64,000 nt of DNA, taken from NCBI GenBank assembly GCA_947170495.1, contig CAMVUB010000001.1, forward strand, positions 1 through 64,000. Reading direction: 5' to 3'. The notes under the pieces are model-generated. The model worked only from the letters and a program-made list of their open reading frames with translations, ran no database searches and had not been told where the DNA came from. Positions within the stretch are counted from its first letter, which is position 1. Every line of letters starts with the position of its first letter. This stretch comes from an uncultured Prevotellaceae bacterium (GTDB lineage: Bacteria; Bacteroidota; Bacteroidia; Bacteroidales; Bacteroidaceae). The position numbers and the translations under genes are program-made. Positions 12,959 to 62,815 of this stretch are shown in pieces.

Positions 12959-13139
12959 GATATTAATAAGGTATTAAGGTTATGTCTGGCACTATTGCCT
13001 AACTGGTTGCAAAGGTACAAATAATTTTTGATATACGCAATACATTTTGACAAAATCTCGAGGTTAAATTTCCACCTAATGTCACCTTTAACACTCAAGC
13101 AATTTTCATGCCAAATCGATGCTTCCTTGTGGCATGAAA

Positions 13140-13380
13140 GACGCGTCCTTATCGCTTGAACGACGCGTCGTGATGGCCGGAGGGACGCGTCGTAATTGCC
13201 GGAGGGACGCGTCGTGTTTTACTGTTCCATGCATGGAACTTGTCAGAAGACCGTGGTCTTCCGCCCGTAAGACCGCGGTCCTCCTGCCAACACACCGCAC
13301 TGCTCAGCCCGATGCACTGCGGTCCTCAGCCCATCACGCCGCACTGCTCTCGCTTTTCCCACGCATGAGAAAAACTCAAC
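13140..13380. repeat. 22-bp-period array (at least 10-11 units) with variable 8-bp palindromic or near-palindromic cores
   Basis: Core starts at 13140, 13162, 13184, 13206, 13228, 13250, 13272, 13294, 13316, 13338, 13360: GACGCGTC x4, CATGCATG, ACCGTGGT, ACCGCGGT, ACCGCACT, ACTGCGGT, GCCGCACT, CACGCATG. Confidence 0.88.
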
Positions 13381-13422: not shown

Positions 13423-14052
13423 CGAAAACCCTACACCTCGCGCAAAATCGCCATAACAACCTCTTTATGAACCACTTGTCGCGCGCTCACACCTACGCAA
13501 CCTCGCGCAACCTCGCGCAACCCTACACGCATCCAGCCTATCAAGCGCCTCAGCACATACGCATATTCAAGTTTCGGGAGTCGCTATTATTTCTTTAACC
13601 GCAAAGGACGCAAAGTTTTTAAGGTTGCATGTCCTCGGGTAGCTTGAGCCATTGCGCTTCGCGAGACCGCAGAGCCGAACAAACGTGCTTCGCACAAGGT
13701 TTTGTTCTAGGCAAAGAACGCAAAGAACATGTCCTCTACTTTCTCTGCGCAGCCTTTGCGTCCTTTGCCCTTTGAAACCTGCGAAGCGTTTCAAAGGTTC
13801 TGCGGTCTTCCGATAGGCATAGGACTGACTTTGAGACCTTTAAAATCTTTGAGTCTTTGCGCCTTTGCGGTTAAAAGAAAAGGACAGTTAACTCCCATTT
13901 CTTCTACCATTTTTACTCCCGATAGTTAAGTACGCTTACTGACTGTGCGCGACCTTGCGTGAGGTTGCGCGAGGTTGCGTAGGGTTAAGCGCGCCATAAC
14001 TGTTTGTTTAACAACCATATACAATCATTTTGCGCGAGGTGTGACCTTTTCG
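13423..14052. mobile_element. MITE-like 630-bp inverted-repeat element
   Basis: Ends CGAAAA(N4)ACACCTCGCGCAAAAT (13423-13448) and its reverse complement (14027-14052); inner CGCAACCTCGCGCAACC repeats on both arms. Confidence 0.6.
13591..13879. repeat. Inner nested inverted-repeat element with CGCAAAG-type arms
   Basis: TTCTTTAACCGCAAAGGACGCAAAG..TTTTTAAGGT vs ACCTTTAAAATCTTTGAGTCTTTGCGCCTTTGCGGTTAAAAGAA, plus inner GCAAAGAACGCAAAG / CTTTGCGTCCTTTGC. Confidence 0.75.
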
Positions 14053-14199
14053 CCTATTTCGTTGATTTTTGGCAATGAGCAATCAGCCTCATCGACACCC
14101 ATAACAGCTGAAATAAGAGGGTAGGGGAGAAAAAACGCCCAATCCTTTGGCGCGTTCAAGAAACTTTTGCTACCTTTGCGGCAGAAAAATGCATATATC

Positions 14200-29876: not shown

Positions 29877-31391
29877 ATGACAACACCACTTATTGCCAAA
29901 ACCTTCCAGGGCCTGGAACCTCTGTTGGCACAGGAGATCACAGAACTGGGTGCCACGGACATACAGATAGGCCGTCGCATGGTCACCTTCACGGGCGACA
30001 AAGAGATGATGTATCGCGCCAACTTCTGCCTGCGCACAGCCATCCGCGTGCTCAAACCCATCAAGCTGTTCAAGGCCAGGAGCGCCGACGATGTCTATGA
30101 AGCCGTGAAGTCCATCGACTGGTCAGAGTATCTCACGCCGCAGACGACGTTTGCCGTTGACAGCGTAGTCTTCTCGCCCGAGTTCCACCACTCCAAGTTC
30201 GTGGCATACAAGGTGAAGGACGCCATTGCCGACCAGTTCCGTGAGCGCACAGGCTCACGTCCTAATGTCAGCGTCTCCAACCCCGATATACAGCTGCACA
30301 TACATATCTCCGACTACGATGCTACACTGGCGCTGGACAGCAGCGGCGAGAGCCTGCATCGTCGCGGCTATCGTCAGGAGACGGTGGCAGCGCCGCTGAA
30401 CGAAGTCCTGGCCGCCGGCATCATCATGATGACAGGGTGGAAGGGCGAGCGCGATTTCATAGACCCCTTCTGCGGCAGCGGCACCCTGTGCATCGAGGCA
30501 GCCCTTATCGCACGCGGCATTGCGCCCGGCGTGTTCCGTCAAGGCTACGCCTTCGAGAAATGGCCCGATTTCGACCGCGATCTCTTCGAGCGTGTCTATA
30601 ACGATGACACGGGTGAGCGCGAGTTCGAGCACCATATCTATGGCCGCGACATCGACCCGAAGGCCGTAGGCATCGCCACCCGCAACGTAAAAGCGGCAGG
30701 CCTCAGCAAAGACATCACCATCGAAGAGGCCGACTTCACGAAGGCGCCGCTCCAAGTATCCAATGGTCAATCGTCCGGTTGTCCACTGATGGTCACCAAC
30801 CCGCCTTACGGCGAACGCATCTCCAGTCCCGACCTCCTCGGCCTCTACAAGAGCATCGGGCAGAAGCTGAAGCGCGAGTTTACGGGCGGCGAAGCCTGGA
30901 TTCTCAGCTATCGCGAGGAATGCTTCGATGAGATTGGTCTGAAGCCCTCACTGAAGACACCTTTATATAATGGCTCGCTGGAGTGTGAACTGCGCAAATA
31001 TGTGCTCTTTGGCGGACGTCTGGACGAACACCGTGCCAAGGGCGGCATCGTGAAAACCAACGCAGAGCGCCGCGAGATGGCGCAGAAGCGCCGCTTCAAG
31101 CAACACCGCGATGGCTTCAAGGGTGGGTACAATGACGAGGAACGCGAGGAGCGCCGCGACAACCACCGCTTCAACAAGTTCTCCAAGCGCGACGGTGAGT
31201 TTAGCAAGCGCGACGGTGATCATTTTAGCAAGCGTGACGGCGACCGTTTCGGTAAGCGTGAAGGCTTCAAGGGTCGCAGCAGCAGTTTTGGTCGCAAGGG
31301 TGCTGATTTCCACGCGAAAGGTAACGACCGTGCAGCCCGTCAGGAGGCACGTCGCCGTTTCTTCGGAGGAGGGGAGGAGAGTGAGGATTGA
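29877..31391 (+). CDS. rlmL: THUMP domain class I SAM RNA methyltransferase (RlmL/TrmN-like) with KRDG-repeat tail
   Basis: FIDPFCGSGTLCIEAALIA, MVTNPPYGERI; C-terminal KRDGEFSKRDGDHFSKRDGDRFGKREG. Confidence 0.85.
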   Translation: MTTPLIAKTFQGLEPLLAQEITELGATDIQIGRRMVTFTGDKEMMYRANFCLRTAIRVLKPIKLFKARSADDVYEAVKSIDWSEYLTPQTTFAVDSVVFSPEFHHSKFVAYKVKDAIADQFRERTGSRPNVSVSNPDIQLHIHISDYDATLALDSSGESLHRRGYRQETVAAPLNEVLAAGIIMMTGWKGERDFIDPFCGSGTLCIEAALIARGIAPGVFRQGYAFEKWPDFDRDLFERVYNDDTGEREFEHHIYGRDIDPKAVGIATRNVKAAGLSKDITIEEADFTKAPLQVSNGQSSGCPLMVTNPPYGERISSPDLLGLYKSIGQKLKREFTGGEAWILSYREECFDEIGLKPSLKTPLYNGSLECELRKYVLFGGRLDEHRAKGGIVKTNAERREMAQKRRFKQHRDGFKGGYNDEEREERRDNHRFNKFSKRDGEFSKRDGDHFSKRDGDRFGKREGFKGRSSSFGRKGADFHAKGNDRAARQEARRRFFGGGEESED

Positions 31392-31418
31392 GAATTGAGG
31401 ATTGAAGATTGAGGATAT
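31384..31418. repeat. Degenerate GAGGATTGA tandem repeat between rlmL-like and the next ORF
   Basis: GAGGATTGAGAATTGAGGATTGAAGATTGAGGAT. Confidence 0.75.
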
Positions 31419-51547: not shown

Positions 51548-51563
51548 TGTCTATTTATTAATC

Positions 51564-51617
51564 CATCATGATGGCTCAATCAATCCATCATGATGGATTC
51601 ATCATTCCATCACGATG
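51564..51617. repeat. 22-bp-period array with CATCATGATG cores (3 units)
   Basis: CATCATGATG, CATCATGATG, CATCACGATG centred at 51568.5, 51590.5, 51612.5. Confidence 0.85.
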
Positions 51618-51657
51618 GATTCATCTATGCACTGTACTCTTTCGGGCATCTGATGCT

Positions 51658-56444: not shown

Positions 56445-59400
56445 ATGATGAAAAAAAACATTCTCTTGACTCTTATTGTGGCGCTTGTTACCATGCAGGC
56501 ATGGGGACAGGCTGTCATTTTTCCGCAGGAGCAACAGGCGGGAATAGCCACTTCATCGGTCAGCGCTGGCACCTATACGCTATCCAACGACCTGCTCTCT
56601 GCCACTTTCATCCACGCTGACGGCCAGCTGTCCTTTGGCGGATGCGAAGCGATGGGGCTACAACCCGGCAATGAGCTGTTCAGCATCCGCCTCGGCAACG
56701 GTACGGAGGTGGCATCCTCTGCCATGACGCTGAACGATGTGCAACTGGTTACCCTTTCGCCCGACGCCTCTGCCGCCAAGGCATCGCTGAAGCTGCCCGG
56801 CAAAGCGGTGGAAGCAAGCTACAGCTATGGCAACCTTGCGCTGACATGGCGTGCTGTGCTGCGCGACGGCTCCCACTACCTTCGCACGGAGTTGGAACTG
56901 ACGGCAGTGTCCGACGTGGCCATGAATGCCATCATTCCCATGCACTACACCGTGGATAACAATAGCAGCGCGCAGGCCCCAGCCGTAGTGGGCAACACGC
57001 GCGGATCCGTCATCGCCAGTGACAAGATCTTCGCCGGACTGGAAACTCCGATGGGCAAGAACAGCATCGTGGGAGCAGTGAACACGGAGCCCTTTGCCTA
57101 TGGCAACTGGACACGCTCCACCTTCTCTTGGGAGCCTGGATCGGAAACACCTCAGGGTATTCTTAACCTCGGCTTACCAGCCAGCGGTGTTCTCGGTGTG
57201 CAGGGCTATCTGGCCATCCTCGGAAGCGGCACACAGACGGTGACATTCCAGTACACGAGCGGCAACCACCGACTGGACATCGCAGGCGTGGATATCGTGA
57301 ACCTCAGCGGCACCGTGGTGGCCAGCGACTACCACAAGGGTTACACTGGCGGCGCCAAGTCCAAAAACGTCTATACGCTCAACATACCCGAACCTGGATT
57401 CTATCTCGTGCGCTACTTCCGCGACACGGTAACCGATGCACAGGCATCGTTCAACAGCAACGGCACCATCACCTGGAGCTGTCAAGTCATTGCGCCAGAA
57501 CCGGTGTTCGATGGCAACATGGAAGCCAACATCCTGCCCGCGGTTGATGGTGCTGACGATACTAACCTGTCAGACTCATGGACATCAAGCACATGGAGCG
57601 TCATGTCGGAAATTCCGGCAGGCGTGAGCAACCTTGGCTTCACCGCCTCCAATGTGGTGAAGAAGGAGAAGGCAGTAGCCTTCAGTGCCGGCGGCACACT
57701 TAGGGTTACCCTCACTTATTCCAGCGGCAGCCACCGACTTAACATCGTGGGCGTGGATTTGCTGAACGGCGAGGATGAAGTGGTGGCCTCTGACTATCAC
57801 GTAGGCCACACGGGTGGAGCGCACAGCAACAATACATACAGCTTCGCAGTGCCCTCAGCTGGCAATTTCCGACTGCGCTACCTCTGTGAGACGAAGACAG
57901 AATCGATAACCTCATCTGGCAATATCGCCATCACATACGATACTGGCTATCCGTTGCTGTCTGTCGGTGGTACTCGCACCGACACATGGAACACTTCGTC
58001 ATGGAGCGCTCCAGCGGTTGTGCCTGCCCGCATCAATGAACTGGGCTACACTTCTGATCGGATCAAGATGATGGAGAAGACGGTTCGCTTCAACCGCGCC
58101 GGCGGAACGTTCGCGGCGCAGTTCATGTACGCCTCCGGCAATCACGGCCTCACCATCGCCGGTGTGGATCTATTGGATGAAGACGGGAATATCGTCGTCT
58201 CAGACTACCACAGCGGTTTCTCAGGCACTGCCAAGACCGATAATGTCTATTCATTTGTCGTGCCTGCGACCGGCAGCTACACAATCCGCTATTTTGCTGT
58301 CCTCAACCCCAACGGCTCGGACAACACATCATCGGGCAACATCAACCTGAGCTACAACAAGAGCGAATATATCCACCTGCCCGCACCCACACAGACTGAG
58401 TTCAAGGGCGAATGGAGCCGACAGACAACACTGGCTGCCGGCAAGACATGGAAGGTGGGAGCCGTCATTGGTCTCATCGCTCCGGGTCAGGCCCGCCGCT
58501 CATTCCTCTGCTATAGCGAGCGCGAGCGTGCCGTGCCTTGGCGCGCATTCCCGATGTACAACTCGTGGTTCGAGCTGAACATCGACCGCAACAACAGTGC
58601 CGACTACAGCGGTAACTTCACAGAGGCACAATGTGACGAAGTACTCGACCAGTGGAAAACTCACCTCTACGACGCCTACGGCGTGGGTATCGGCTCATTC
58701 ATGTGGGACGACGGATGGGATGAGTACGGCACTTGGGAGTTCAACCCCAACTTCCCCAATGGCTTCCAGCCGCTGAGCGATAAGGCATGGGCCATGAACT
58801 CTCAGATTGGTGCTTGGCTCGGTCCCGTGGGCGGTTACGGCACCAGCGGCAACTACCGCCGCAACTACTGGCGCTCGCGAGGTGGAATGCAACTCTCCAA
58901 CCCCGCCTACTACGAGGTATTCCTCAACCGCACCAGCTTTATGCTCAACAACTACCACTTCAACTTCTTCAAGTTCGACGGCATCAGCGCTCAGTTCAGC
59001 TCCGTAGGACCCGATGCGGGTGCCACGGGCGAAGAGAATGCAGAGGGCATCATCGCTATCGAGCAGGAACTCCGTAAGGTAAAGCCCGACGTGTTCTTCA
59101 ACACCACCGTGGGAACATGGGCATCGCCCTTCTGGTTCCAGGTGAGCGATGCCGTATGGCGTCAGGAGAACGACTGGGGCACCGCCGGCAACCAGGGCAA
59201 CACGCGCGAGCAGTGGATCACATACCGCGACCGCCTCGTCTATCAGAACTACGTGCAAAATTCACCGCTCTGCCCCATCAATGCCATGATGACCCACGGC
59301 TTCATCCTCTCCAACTACGGTGGCGGTGTAGCCAACATGAGCCGTAACTACAACGATGTTCTCCGCGAGATGCGCTGCGCCTTTGCCTGCGGCAGCGAAC

Positions 59401-59972
59401 TGGTGGAGGTCTATGCCGACTTCGCCCTGATGAACAGCATCAATGGCGGTGCACTATGGGGCGACCTAGCCGAGTGCATACGCTGGCAGAAGGCACAGGA
59501 GGATGTGTTGCCCGACGTGCATTGGGTAGGAGGAAACCCGTGGGACGGCAGCCGTGCCAACGTCTATGGTTGGGCATCCTGGAACGGCAGAAAGGCCACC
59601 TTGGCACTGCGCAATCCGGCGGCTTCGGCACAGACGTTCACCACCACACTGCGCGAAGCTCTCGAGATACCGGAATACATCCACACCACCATCACACTCT
59701 CTGATGCCTTCACGCAAAGCGCCCTCAGCGGACTGACCACCGGAACGCCTATTGACATCGACACACCGTTGACGCTCAATCTCGCTGCATCATCAGTATA
59801 TATTTATAATGGTGAGGACGGCAGTAACCCCACCAGCATCAGAGGGCTTGCCAACAAGCAGCCCACTGGCGGCGACTCACTGTGGTACACCCTCGATGGA
59901 CGCTGTCTGCAGGGTAAACCCGCCAAGCAAGGCGTGTATATCAACAACGGCAAGAAAGCAATCATCAAATAG
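56445..59972 (+). CDS. Secreted alpha-galactosidase/alpha-GalNAcase-like glycosidase with triplicated accessory domain
   Basis: Signal peptide; FMWDDGWDEYGTWEFNPNFPNGFQPL..FNFFKFDGI; three copies of SGNHxLxIAGVDxL..SDYHxG..NxYxxxVP; C-terminal WYTLDGRCLQGKPAKQGVYINNGKKAIIK. Confidence 0.7.
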   Translation: MMKKNILLTLIVALVTMQAWGQAVIFPQEQQAGIATSSVSAGTYTLSNDLLSATFIHADGQLSFGGCEAMGLQPGNELFSIRLGNGTEVASSAMTLNDVQLVTLSPDASAAKASLKLPGKAVEASYSYGNLALTWRAVLRDGSHYLRTELELTAVSDVAMNAIIPMHYTVDNNSSAQAPAVVGNTRGSVIASDKIFAGLETPMGKNSIVGAVNTEPFAYGNWTRSTFSWEPGSETPQGILNLGLPASGVLGVQGYLAILGSGTQTVTFQYTSGNHRLDIAGVDIVNLSGTVVASDYHKGYTGGAKSKNVYTLNIPEPGFYLVRYFRDTVTDAQASFNSNGTITWSCQVIAPEPVFDGNMEANILPAVDGADDTNLSDSWTSSTWSVMSEIPAGVSNLGFTASNVVKKEKAVAFSAGGTLRVTLTYSSGSHRLNIVGVDLLNGEDEVVASDYHVGHTGGAHSNNTYSFAVPSAGNFRLRYLCETKTESITSSGNIAITYDTGYPLLSVGGTRTDTWNTSSWSAPAVVPARINELGYTSDRIKMMEKTVRFNRAGGTFAAQFMYASGNHGLTIAGVDLLDEDGNIVVSDYHSGFSGTAKTDNVYSFVVPATGSYTIRYFAVLNPNGSDNTSSGNINLSYNKSEYIHLPAPTQTEFKGEWSRQTTLAAGKTWKVGAVIGLIAPGQARRSFLCYSERERAVPWRAFPMYNSWFELNIDRNNSADYSGNFTEAQCDEVLDQWKTHLYDAYGVGIGSFMWDDGWDEYGTWEFNPNFPNGFQPLSDKAWAMNSQIGAWLGPVGGYGTSGNYRRNYWRSRGGMQLSNPAYYEVFLNRTSFMLNNYHFNFFKFDGISAQFSSVGPDAGATGEENAEGIIAIEQELRKVKPDVFFNTTVGTWASPFWFQVSDAVWRQENDWGTAGNQGNTREQWITYRDRLVYQNYVQNSPLCPINAMMTHGFILSNYGGGVANMSRNYNDVLREMRCAFACGSELVEVYADFALMNSINGGALWGDLAECIRWQKAQEDVLPDVHWVGGNPWDGSRANVYGWASWNGRKATLALRNPAASAQTFTTTLREALEIPEYIHTTITLSDAFTQSALSGLTTGTPIDIDTPLTLNLAASSVYIYNGEDGSNPTSIRGLANKQPTGGDSLWYTLDGRCLQGKPAKQGVYINNGKKAIIK

Positions 59973-60029
59973 AGTCTTACGTTTCATAGATGTAAAAAAC
60001 ATGAAGTGAACAACAAAATAATGTACCCT

Positions 60030-60102
60030 CTATAGTCCCTCGCCTGACCCTCTATAGTGTCTGCGCGTACCCTCTATAGAGGGTCAGGCGAGGGAGTAGT
60101 AG
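60030..60102. repeat. 22-bp-period array with CTATAG cores (4 units)
   Basis: CTATAG centred at 60032.5, 60054.5, 60076.5 and AGTAGTAG at 60098.5. Confidence 0.85.
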
Positions 60103-60137
60103 TGTCTTGTGTGTAGGGATGGGAATAACTTTTGTTG

Positions 60138-60207
60138 AAAACACTACGAACACTACGCAGATGGGAAGGAGAGAAGGATGGCGGGTTGCGTAATGTTCGT
60201 AGTGTTT
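60138..60207. repeat. Inverted repeat (21 bp, one mismatch) between convergent genes
   Basis: AAACACTACGAACACTACGCA ... TGCGTAATGTTCGTAGTGTTT. Confidence 0.85.
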
Positions 60208-60247
60208 AGCGCAAAACTTTTTTCTTTAGATGAACGTGTGAATAGAA

Positions 60248-60453
60248 GGACGCGACCTTTTTGTTTTTCTCACGTGAGAAAAACAATTTGTCACTGATGG
60301 CCAATGCTTTTGTCACGCGTGGCAGATGGTTTTGCCACCAGTGGCAAAAGACGGAAGACCATGCTCTTTCAATCCGAAGACCTAAGGGTTATGAGAAAAA
60401 GCCTTAAGGGTTTTGCGCTGAAGCCCTGATGGTTTTGGGAGAATGTCCTAAGG
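60248..60453. repeat. 22-bp-period array (9-10 units) with variable near-palindromic cores
   Basis: Cores at 22-bp steps: GGACGCGA, TCACGTGA, CACTGATG, CACGCGTG, CACCAGTG, ACCATGCT, ACCTAAGG, CCTTAAGG, CCCTGATG, TCCTAAGG. Confidence 0.88.
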
Positions 60454-60472
60454 GTTTCGGAGTGTGGTGCGT

Positions 60473-62740
60473 TTATCTGACGACTTTGCGGCCGTTGTGG
60501 ATGTAGATGCCGTGCTTTATTGAGGATTGATGATTGAGGATTGAGGATTGAGGAATGCGGCGGCCGGAGAGGTCGTACCAGCTCCCCTCTTTGAAAGAGA
60601 GGGGTAGGGGGTGAGTCTCTATACCATCGTAGATTTCCTTGGTGCCGAGGTAGGTGAGGCGGAAGCGGTCGAAGATGGTCCAGTCGTTGCCGATGAGGGT
60701 GCTTTTGCGGATGCCGAGGCGCAGGCGGTTGTCGGTGACGGTGACGAGGAGCTCGTTGGCTGTGTAGCCGTTGGCCGTGAAGACGGTGCTGGCGTCGGTC
60801 ATGGTGTTGGGGACATAGACGTTGCCGGCTTTCGTGGTGTAGCCGCTGCCGCTGGTGCGCTTGCCGCCGTCGAGGATGTTCATGAGGGGGGTCTCTACGT
60901 CGTTGGCATAGAGGTAGGCGTTGCGGTCGGTGGCTGTGGTGCCTGTGCCGCCAGCGCGATAGAAGCCTTGGCAGGTGAGGCGATAGACGCCGTTGGGCAC
61001 GCCGGCGATGATCTGGTTGACGTCGAAGTTAAGGTTCCAGCGTTCTGCACACTGGTTCGCGCCCGACGAGCTGGCATCGGGGCCTCCCAGCACGGGGCCG
61101 CCGTCCCAAGCGCCAAAGCGTGTGTCGTTGCGCCCGAAGTCGGGGCAGGCGATGAGGAAGCTGGCATCTACGGGGTTGGCTGGTGAGGCTGCGGCGAAGC
61201 GCTCCAGCATCTGTGCGTGGGTGAGGCGCCGCCATTGGGCGTGCTGGTTGGTCTTCACGGTTGAAGTGGCGTTCTTGGTGAGGCCTTTGTTCTTCGTGGC
61301 GCCATAGAGGTAGTTTTTGTTGTCGGTGGTGAGGAGATAGGTGCCGCTGCCGGCGCTGGTCTCCTCCAGTGTCCAACCGACGGCGGGCTGGTCGCAGTAC
61401 AGTTCGCTCCATCCGAGATAGTGGCTGTCGCCGCCGTTGTTGATGCCGGTGTCGATGGTGTAGGTGCCGTTGGGCAGTTGCTCAAAGTAGAGGGGGAGTG
61501 CTACGTCGCCGAGGGAGGCTTGCGTGCCCCAGGCGTTGCCGGCACAGAGGAACTGGTTGTGAAAGACATTCTCGAGGTAGCCCAGCTGTCCTTCGACATG
61601 CGGCGTGTTGGTGTTGAACTGCGTCTTCAGCACCTGGATGGCGCCGACGCCTTCCTGGCAAAGCACCACGTAGGCGGCTCCGGGCGTCTCGCTGTAGCCT
61701 GTCGAGGAGACGGTGTAGTCGCGCACGCCGTTGTACTCGTTGTACGCCCAGCGATGGGTGTGGCCGGAGAAGTGGATGGGGTTCTTGGTGAGGTTGATGA
61801 TGCTGGCGAGCTTGTCCTTTTTCTTCGTGGCGAATGCACGGGCATTGGCATCGTCGGTCCATTTGCCGAGGTCATCGTTGGTGCCGTAGGCTGACCAGTC
61901 GGTGGTCTTGATGTAGCGCCCCACGTCGTTCTGGTCGAGCCACCAGCGGTCGCAGTCGCTGCCGGCGAGGAAGGGGTAGTGCTGTGTCCAGATGGAGGGC
62001 TCGCTGGCATGCTCGCGTGCGAAGGACTCCAAGGTGTTGATGAGGGCATCGGGGGCATACATCTTATCGAGGCCCGTGACATAGCCCATAATCTTATTGA
62101 CTGTATAGCCTTTCTGGAACCAATAGGTCTGTCCGCAGTAGAAGCGCACGCCGCGGAAGCGGAAGGTGAACACATCTGGTTGGCGATGGCCGCTACCGTC
62201 CGAGAAGGTGTACACATCCTCGCAGCCGAGCTGCGCTGCGCTCTGTCTGAAGTGGTTCACGGTGGCCTTGGTGGTCTCGTTGTCTGCGATGCCTCCGGAG
62301 TCGCCGCCTGTGAGGCCTTCGTCGCCATCAGCGCCTGTCCAGTATTCGGGGACGTAGTCATGGTTGCCGGCCATGGTGATGAAGGGAATGCCGGCGTTAG
62401 GGAAGCCGCTCATGACGCTCTCGAAGTCGTTGTGGTCGTCCTTGCTGTCGCCGTCCATATCGCCCAGACACATGACGAGGTCGGCCGTGGGCACGTAGTC
62501 CGGGGCGGCGGGGAAGATGATGCGCTTGCCGCCCGGGCGCCCCATGCCGCAGATGTTCTGCACGTAGGCCTGCATCTGCTCGATGCTGGTGCCGTCGTGA
62601 CCGGTGAGTGCCAGATGGGGGTCAGAGAAGATGACGACGGTGAAGTAGTTCTGAGCGTTCAGAGTGAGGCAAGCCGAGAGTGTCAGAAGGAGGGGGAGGA
62701 GATGGCGGCGTTTCATAGCGGGGCTATTTTTAGGTTTCAA
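60473..62740 (-). CDS. Secreted metallophosphoesterase (calcineurin-like) with C-terminal sorting-like tail
   Basis: FSDPHLAL, CLGDMDGD, MAGNHDYVPEYW, FSGHTHRWAY; C-terminal WYDLSGRRI..GIYIHNGRKVVR. Confidence 0.9.
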   Translation of the reverse strand: MKPKNSPAMKRRHLLPLLLTLSACLTLNAQNYFTVVIFSDPHLALTGHDGTSIEQMQAYVQNICGMGRPGGKRIIFPAAPDYVPTADLVMCLGDMDGDSKDDHNDFESVMSGFPNAGIPFITMAGNHDYVPEYWTGADGDEGLTGGDSGGIADNETTKATVNHFRQSAAQLGCEDVYTFSDGSGHRQPDVFTFRFRGVRFYCGQTYWFQKGYTVNKIMGYVTGLDKMYAPDALINTLESFAREHASEPSIWTQHYPFLAGSDCDRWWLDQNDVGRYIKTTDWSAYGTNDDLGKWTDDANARAFATKKKDKLASIINLTKNPIHFSGHTHRWAYNEYNGVRDYTVSSTGYSETPGAAYVVLCQEGVGAIQVLKTQFNTNTPHVEGQLGYLENVFHNQFLCAGNAWGTQASLGDVALPLYFEQLPNGTYTIDTGINNGGDSHYLGWSELYCDQPAVGWTLEETSAGSGTYLLTTDNKNYLYGATKNKGLTKNATSTVKTNQHAQWRRLTHAQMLERFAAASPANPVDASFLIACPDFGRNDTRFGAWDGGPVLGGPDASSSGANQCAERWNLNFDVNQIIAGVPNGVYRLTCQGFYRAGGTGTTATDRNAYLYANDVETPLMNILDGGKRTSGSGYTTKAGNVYVPNTMTDASTVFTANGYTANELLVTVTDNRLRLGIRKSTLIGNDWTIFDRFRLTYLGTKEIYDGIETHPLPLSFKEGSWYDLSGRRIPQSSILNHQSSIKHGIYIHNGRKVVR
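60518..60556. repeat. TTGAGGA tandem repeat in the metallophosphoesterase coding region
   Basis: TTGAGGATTGATGATTGAGGATTGAGGATTGAGGAATG; encodes IPQSSILNHQSSI. Confidence 0.8.
60580..60621. repeat. REP-like hairpin in frame in the metallophosphoesterase C-terminus
   Basis: AGCTCCCCTCTTTGAAAGAGAGGGGTAGGGGGTGAGTCTC; encodes THPLPLSFKEGS. Confidence 0.85.
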
Positions 62741-62815
62741 GTTTCAAGTTTCAGGTTTCAGGTTTCAAGAGCCAACAGCCAAGAGCCAAGAGCCAAGGGC
62801 CAAGAGCCAAAGGCT
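62728..62815. repeat. Tandem repeat (TTTCAAG)n followed by (AGAGCCAA)n
   Basis: TTTCAAGTTTCAAGTTTCAGGTTTCAGGTTTCAAGAGCCAACAGCCAAGAGCCAAGAGCCAAGGGCCAAGAGCCAA. Confidence 0.9.

Follow-up and report, generated by a model that had tools for sequence, protein, structure and literature searches.

Array B, nine dyad-symmetric units set exactly 22 bp apart in a 64,000-nucleotide stretch of an uncultured Prevotellaceae genome (the window), is one of a few dozen intergenic arrays dispersed through that genome. These arrays are a real, genus-wide intergenic class with a conserved architecture and a fluid sequence. They appear to act as phased arrays that bind multiple dimers, their genomic habits resemble those of REP/BIME elements, and they fit no known family that was tested. 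The arrays and adjoining modules of the window, none assigned to a strand, are as follows.

60263 to 60460: array B, nine dyad-symmetric 22-bp units, axes at 60274 + 22n, lattice score above those of 60 Markov null windows
60246 to 60259: degenerate leading unit AAGGACGCGACCTT, axis 60253, 21 bp ahead of the first array B unit and one base out of register
60136 to 60205: inverted-repeat module AACACTACGAACACTACGCA ... TGCGTAATGTTCGTAGTGTT, related to, but diverged from, the GAAAACCCTATGAGCCCTACGCA...TGCGTAGGGCTCATAGGGTTTTC module adjoining other arrays
60024 to 60110: CTATAG module, TACCCTCTATAG three times ... AGGCGAGGGAGTAGTAGTGTCT, itself about 22-bp periodic and present in the sister genome too
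13111 to 13374: array A, 12 units on a 22-bp step, with orthologous arrays in the related genomes G142 and G145
51558 to 51623: third array, made up of 3 TCCATCATGATGGA units and identical in G145, the sister genome

The dyad axes of array B fall at 60274, 60296, 60318, 60340, 60362, 60384, 60406, 60428 and 60450. The original prediction, that array B shares the exact 22-bp step of array A, is borne out by these positions, and all nine of the cores it listed lie on them. Three cores (TCACGTGA, CACGCGTG and CCTTAAGG) are perfect palindromes, CACCAGTG has a mismatch at the centre pair only, and each remaining core is imperfect by 1-3 mismatches. The AAGGACGCGACCTT unit looks like an array B unit that has lost one base; with this tenth unit included, the improved limits are 60246-60460. 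The array is enclosed by convergent ORFs, as had also been predicted: 56445-59972 on the plus strand (1175 aa) and 60473-62740 on the minus strand (755 aa), the latter encoding a putative metallophosphatase-like protein, named by eye. Tandem repeats of a 7-bp period (ATTGAGG, GTTTCAA, TGAGGAT) are numerous in the window, at 60519-60554, 62734-62810, 31382-31416 and elsewhere, some of them inside ORF ends.

The 22-bp lattice of array B is more than chance. We scored the palindromy of the central 8 bp summed on a fixed step, for steps of P=12-44 over the 64-kb window, and arrays appeared at P=22, 33 and 44 only. Array B scored 23.8 and array A 46.5 (over 13122-13320). In 60 first-order Markov windows of 64 kb with the same dinucleotide make-up, the best score per window had a median of 13.9 and reached 19.2 at most. 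TRF, run independently, reported a period of 22 at 60287-60348 and 60376-60457. Across ten genomes (1.64 Mb sampled), the same scan called 43 arrays at P=22, and every other period yielded about 3.

Within its own genome, array B has 13 similar places by DNA search, and one well-preserved composite used as a query gave 70 matches. About two dozen arrays were read in targeted stretches of this genome. The well-preserved ones follow a unit order of GACGCGTC three times, CACGCGTG, ACCGCGGT, ACCATGGT, GCGCGGT, TCGCGA, ACCATGGT and CTTAAG three times. Many adjoin an inverted repeat with arms of about 20 bp and a CTATAG module, both of which array B has; the inverted repeat has the same pairing at array B as in other copies, with different letters. 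A composite of hairpin module, inverted-repeat module and array occurs in at least six places in G145 (L278, L280-L284), in the order seen here. Palindromic motifs at regular spacing recall CRISPR arrays, but here the palindromes vary, the whole unit is 22 bp, and the arrays are many and dispersed. CRISPR was rejected: in place of near-identical repeats with unique spacers, the arrays hold 163 distinct units, and cores vary within an array.

The class extends well beyond this genome. In the ten-genome lattice sample, this genome, G145, G016, G012, G078 and G003 were positive, G067 and G135 had one array each, and the samples of G011 and G137 had none; 22-bp arrays were thus found in samples of seven of nine relatives, with species-specific cores. 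Eight genomes (this one, G016, G142, G139, G078, G012, G003 and G135) share the 22-bp pitch with unrelated cores. The G016 lattice has GACCGGTC and CACCGGTG where this genome has GACGCGTC and CACGCGTG, and CTATAG itself builds a 22-bp array there; the core is TCAACGTGTTGA in G078, ATGGTTAACC in G012 and CGTCTATACG in G003. The pattern TTTYYCACNNGTGRRAAA occurs in 17 of 121 genus genomes, up to 42 times each, with NN specific to the species; its neighbouring matches often lie exactly 22 or 44 bp away, and the reversed control is almost absent. In another Prevotellaceae-type metagenome-assembled genome (L063), a CTCCACGGAG array lies 25 bp past the orthologue of the 1175-aa gene. A small sample (287 kb) drawn from the order's remaining families held no convincing 22-bp array, and we found no description of 22-bp palindrome lattices in the open-licence literature. 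A 21-bp-step array of AT-rich palindromes TGAGAAAATATATTTTCTCA at L051:4332-4437, in another Prevotellaceae-type assembly, may be a variant of the class.

Arrays are gained and lost between close relatives, and by whole units. In the sister genome G145, whose protein is 97.7% identical in the gene neighbouring array B, the array B region keeps the CTATAG module and a single unit. This one presence/absence boundary has neither terminal inverted repeats nor a target-site duplication, and the difference could be a deletion in the sister rather than an insertion here. The original prediction had called for a sister comparison and held that a region without the 22-bp period would imply coincidence. 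G145 does lack nearly all of array B; the difference, however, is a clean one of presence or absence that leaves one unit, and in the same sister both array A and the 51.5-kb array keep their step, which does not point to coincidence. A comparable intergenic element of the Bacteroidales is the BrickBuilt MITE of Porphyromonas gingivalis, whose short tandem array (23 nt) varies in copy number among strains. Its repeat of 23 nt is conserved and its ends are inverted repeats of the transposon type, whereas the arrays here step by 22 bp and consist of palindromic, diverged units (PMC4596501). No BrickBuilt-type terminal repeats were seen at array B.

Array A keeps its unit types in unchanged order in G145 and has exactly one whole unit fewer in G142. 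The array A gap of G142 also holds an extra 11-unit array that is not in the window (L243:740-1030; G142 C1:133.1-133.4 kb), flanked by opposite AAGCTTCACAC-type repeats. Array A is nearer to its G142 version than to that of the sister G145. It adjoins a large inverted repeat, CCCTACACCTCGCGCAAAA ... TTGCGCGAGGTGT, at 13425-14060, where noncoding blocks are up to 92% identical to G142 and the adjacent gene is 77% identical. Within the loop of this repeat lies a 360-bp sequence with inverted ends TTTCTTTAACCGCAAAG ... CTTTGCGGTTAAAAGAAA (13548-13907); it is missing from the orthologous G142 site and is therefore likely a recent nested insertion.

Whole-unit gain and loss is what neutral tandem-repeat dynamics would produce, with slippage adding 22-bp units and template switching in quasi-palindromes maintaining the symmetry, all without function. 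Template switching is a known route to the perfecting of quasi-palindromes, and some arrays are homogenised (L249, L063). Slippage, however, gives no reason why unrelated arrays should step by 22 and hardly ever by 21, 23 or 24 bp, and neutrality does not account for half-sites that are conserved relative to spacers in orthologues or for placement skewed to gene 3′ ends. We consider a purely neutral origin very improbable.

The conservation of half-sites was measured on eight unit pairs from a single orthologous array pair, array A here and in G145, paired by order. Substitutions affected 6 of 48 positions in the half-site core at k=1-3 from the axis (12%), 15 of 48 in the outer arms at k=4-6, 26 of 64 in the spacers (41%) and 11 of 16 at the centre pair (69%); the core differs from the spacers at p=0.0014 and from the centre at p=4e-5. 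This is the pattern of a putative dimer-binding site with a free centre. Selection or copying had been predicted to act on spacing and symmetry rather than on one motif. The first part stands, as geometry is kept and the motif changes within the genome, between orthologues and among species. The second part goes too far: each species has preferred half-sites, and in orthologues the half-site letters are kept and the central pair drifts. Conserved half-site letters therefore point to sequence recognition besides symmetry.

In lambda operators, phage L5 stoperators and parC iterons, protein dimers cooperate on several sites, dyad or direct, that are spaced by nearly two turns (or one turn), and the lambda half-sites resemble TTTATCAC..GTGATAAA units. 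The marks of such tandem operator or centromere arrays (kept half-sites, free centre and spacers, a fixed helical phase) are found in the one orthologous array pair. Known operator and centromere arrays, however, occupy few loci with one motif each, whereas the present class comprises dozens of chromosomal arrays, the longest with 13 units, whose half-sites change.

We propose that the arrays are predicted sites, in double-stranded DNA, for a dimeric and probably cooperative DNA-binding protein, a reading that we judge about evenly poised between right and wrong. Each unit would be a dyad of two half-sites, with a core that lies 1-3 bp from the central pair, arms reaching to about 7 bp, and a central base pair step left free between the half-sites. 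A pitch of 22 bp is about two helical turns and would place successive dimers near the same face of the helix, where they could touch. Arrays grow and shrink by whole units, and whole arrays come and go from one species to another; the letters that the protein recognises would drift among species, presumably along with the candidate protein, and the geometry stays constant. Against the dimer-site proposal, half-sites vary from unit to unit of an array, which would be unusual for one regulator; 22 bp is two turns plus 0.1 turn; the samples of G011 and G137 hold no arrays; and units in this genome, G142 and G145 are often fair hairpins as well.

If the arrays are transcribed, the hairpins themselves could be what is selected, terminating transcription or shielding mRNA 3′ ends through pairing rather than protein-DNA contact. 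Folding is indeed strong in some species. RNA folding z-scores are −5.65 for array B and −8.07 for the composite at 60018-60465, whole arrays of this genome, G142 and G145 are much more stably folded than their shuffled versions (z −5.7 to −8.1), and the inverted-repeat module beside the arrays keeps its long pairing with letters that differ by copy. The strong whole-array folding stems in part from the repeated palindromes themselves. About 40% of units fold below −5 kcal/mol in this genome, G142 and G145, against 3% in G078, and units of G139 and G016 have little hairpin stability. Symmetry extends about 7 bp from the axis in this genome, G142, G145 and G016 and about 4 bp in G078, and the centre pair is symmetric here and not in G139 (0.13) or G078. 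The G078 units are symmetric at k=1-4 only and fold at a mean of −0.9 kcal/mol, against −1.2 for shuffles. The instability and limited symmetry of these units favour double-stranded dyad recognition, and the per-unit RNA hairpin was rejected as a general basis; hairpin formation is possible as an extra in some species. In array A conservation is highest in the pairs that flank the centre, which a hairpin would not predict and which supports dimer sites, and RNA hairpins need no fixed 22-nt step. At gathering score, the only Rfam families in the window are two tRNAs. The 3′-end position of the arrays would suit RNA hairpins, an explanation that we nonetheless regard as improbable.

Arrays prefer gene 3′ ends. 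Taking the longest ORFs as genes, at approximate positions, 40 arrays with genes on both sides lie in 15 convergent, 22 tandem and 3 divergent gaps, compared with 60, 148 and 71 for other gaps. Divergent gaps are avoided (3/40 vs 71/279, p=0.009), convergent gaps are favoured (15/40 vs 60/279, p=0.04), and the median distance to the nearest gene 3′ end is 85 bp. Such placement suggests that the predicted protein-bound arrays would serve as a transcription roadblock, a boundary or a nucleoid-organising site.

Gene 3′ ends are also where enterobacterial BIMEs lie and affect mRNA. The arrays could be REP/BIME-like, with units recognised as single-stranded DNA hairpins and spread by RAYT (TnpA-REP) HUH transposases. 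Both are short extragenic palindromes, dispersed, clustered, species-specific and placed at gene 3′ ends (PMC2817692, PMC6006769, PMC3733652). Short imperfect palindromes in many extragenic copies are found here too, and the arrays of this genome fold strongly. RAYT-like Y1 proteins are common in the genus (they occur in 82 of 121 genomes, with 9 matches in this one and as many as 11 divergent matches in a genome) and sometimes adjoin an array, as at C39, C51 and C13 of this genome, G065 C30 and G142 C2. A 22-bp array lies within 1.5 kb of a RAYT at 14 of 41 loci, compared with 17 of 143 background segments (p=0.0015), but the enrichment fades as the array threshold is tightened (p=0.018 at 18, 0.10 at 20). 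These RAYT-like (HUH) proteins are 350-510 aa long, match the NCBIfam REP-associated tyrosine transposase model weakly and below its cut-off, have invariant PDHxH and YxxxNP motifs, and carry a long C-terminal domain with weak profile similarity to DprA (E 0.65). Loci of this large and diverse family include L162:3335-4705, L163:3414-4580 and L213, and C39, C51 and C77 of G000. No TnpA-Y1 subclass tabulated in PMC6006769 pairs this length with a Y[LVI]xDNP motif, and no relative was found in viral contigs.

RAYTs as the sole driver, a strong candidate at first, were weakened by control genomes. G078 (97% complete) has no Y1_Tnp or RAYT profile match and G012 no RAYT profile match, yet each has about 5 arrays per 100 kb; conversely, G137 has 5 RAYT matches and zero arrays in 120 kb. 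The REP foot GT[AG]G is present in 0-12% of units, close to its frequency in shuffled sequence, and CGTC in 2-6%. Many units form no hairpin, and rather than a cognate RAYT flanked by its own REPs, we found only the loose enrichment near RAYT genes. Unlike REP/BIME elements, the arrays have an exact 22-bp tandem step, half-sites that vary within an array, no GTAG/CGTC foot and often no stable hairpin, and they occur in genomes where no RAYT or Y1 transposase was detected. Because the defining foot and the obligatory RAYT both fail, none of the known families tested fits. RAYTs may help to spread some arrays and are unlikely to be the general cause; the REP/BIME explanation as a whole we consider doubtful.

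A class defined by spacing and symmetry eludes the usual sequence-based repeat finders, and a simple lattice score detects such arrays. Returning to the dimer-site proposal, we tentatively suggest a chromosome-wide system, its geometry conserved across much of the genus, in which a predicted dimeric protein would form short filaments on 22-bp-phased dyads at gene ends, with fast co-evolution of protein and letters writing a species code on a common lattice. We think this larger scheme possible, if on the unlikely side. Should the arrays be protein lattices, they would represent a new type of boundary at gene ends, or of nucleoid element, in abundant rumen bacteria. With letters that change quickly on a fixed pitch, the co-evolution of protein and sites could then be tested directly in dozens of species.
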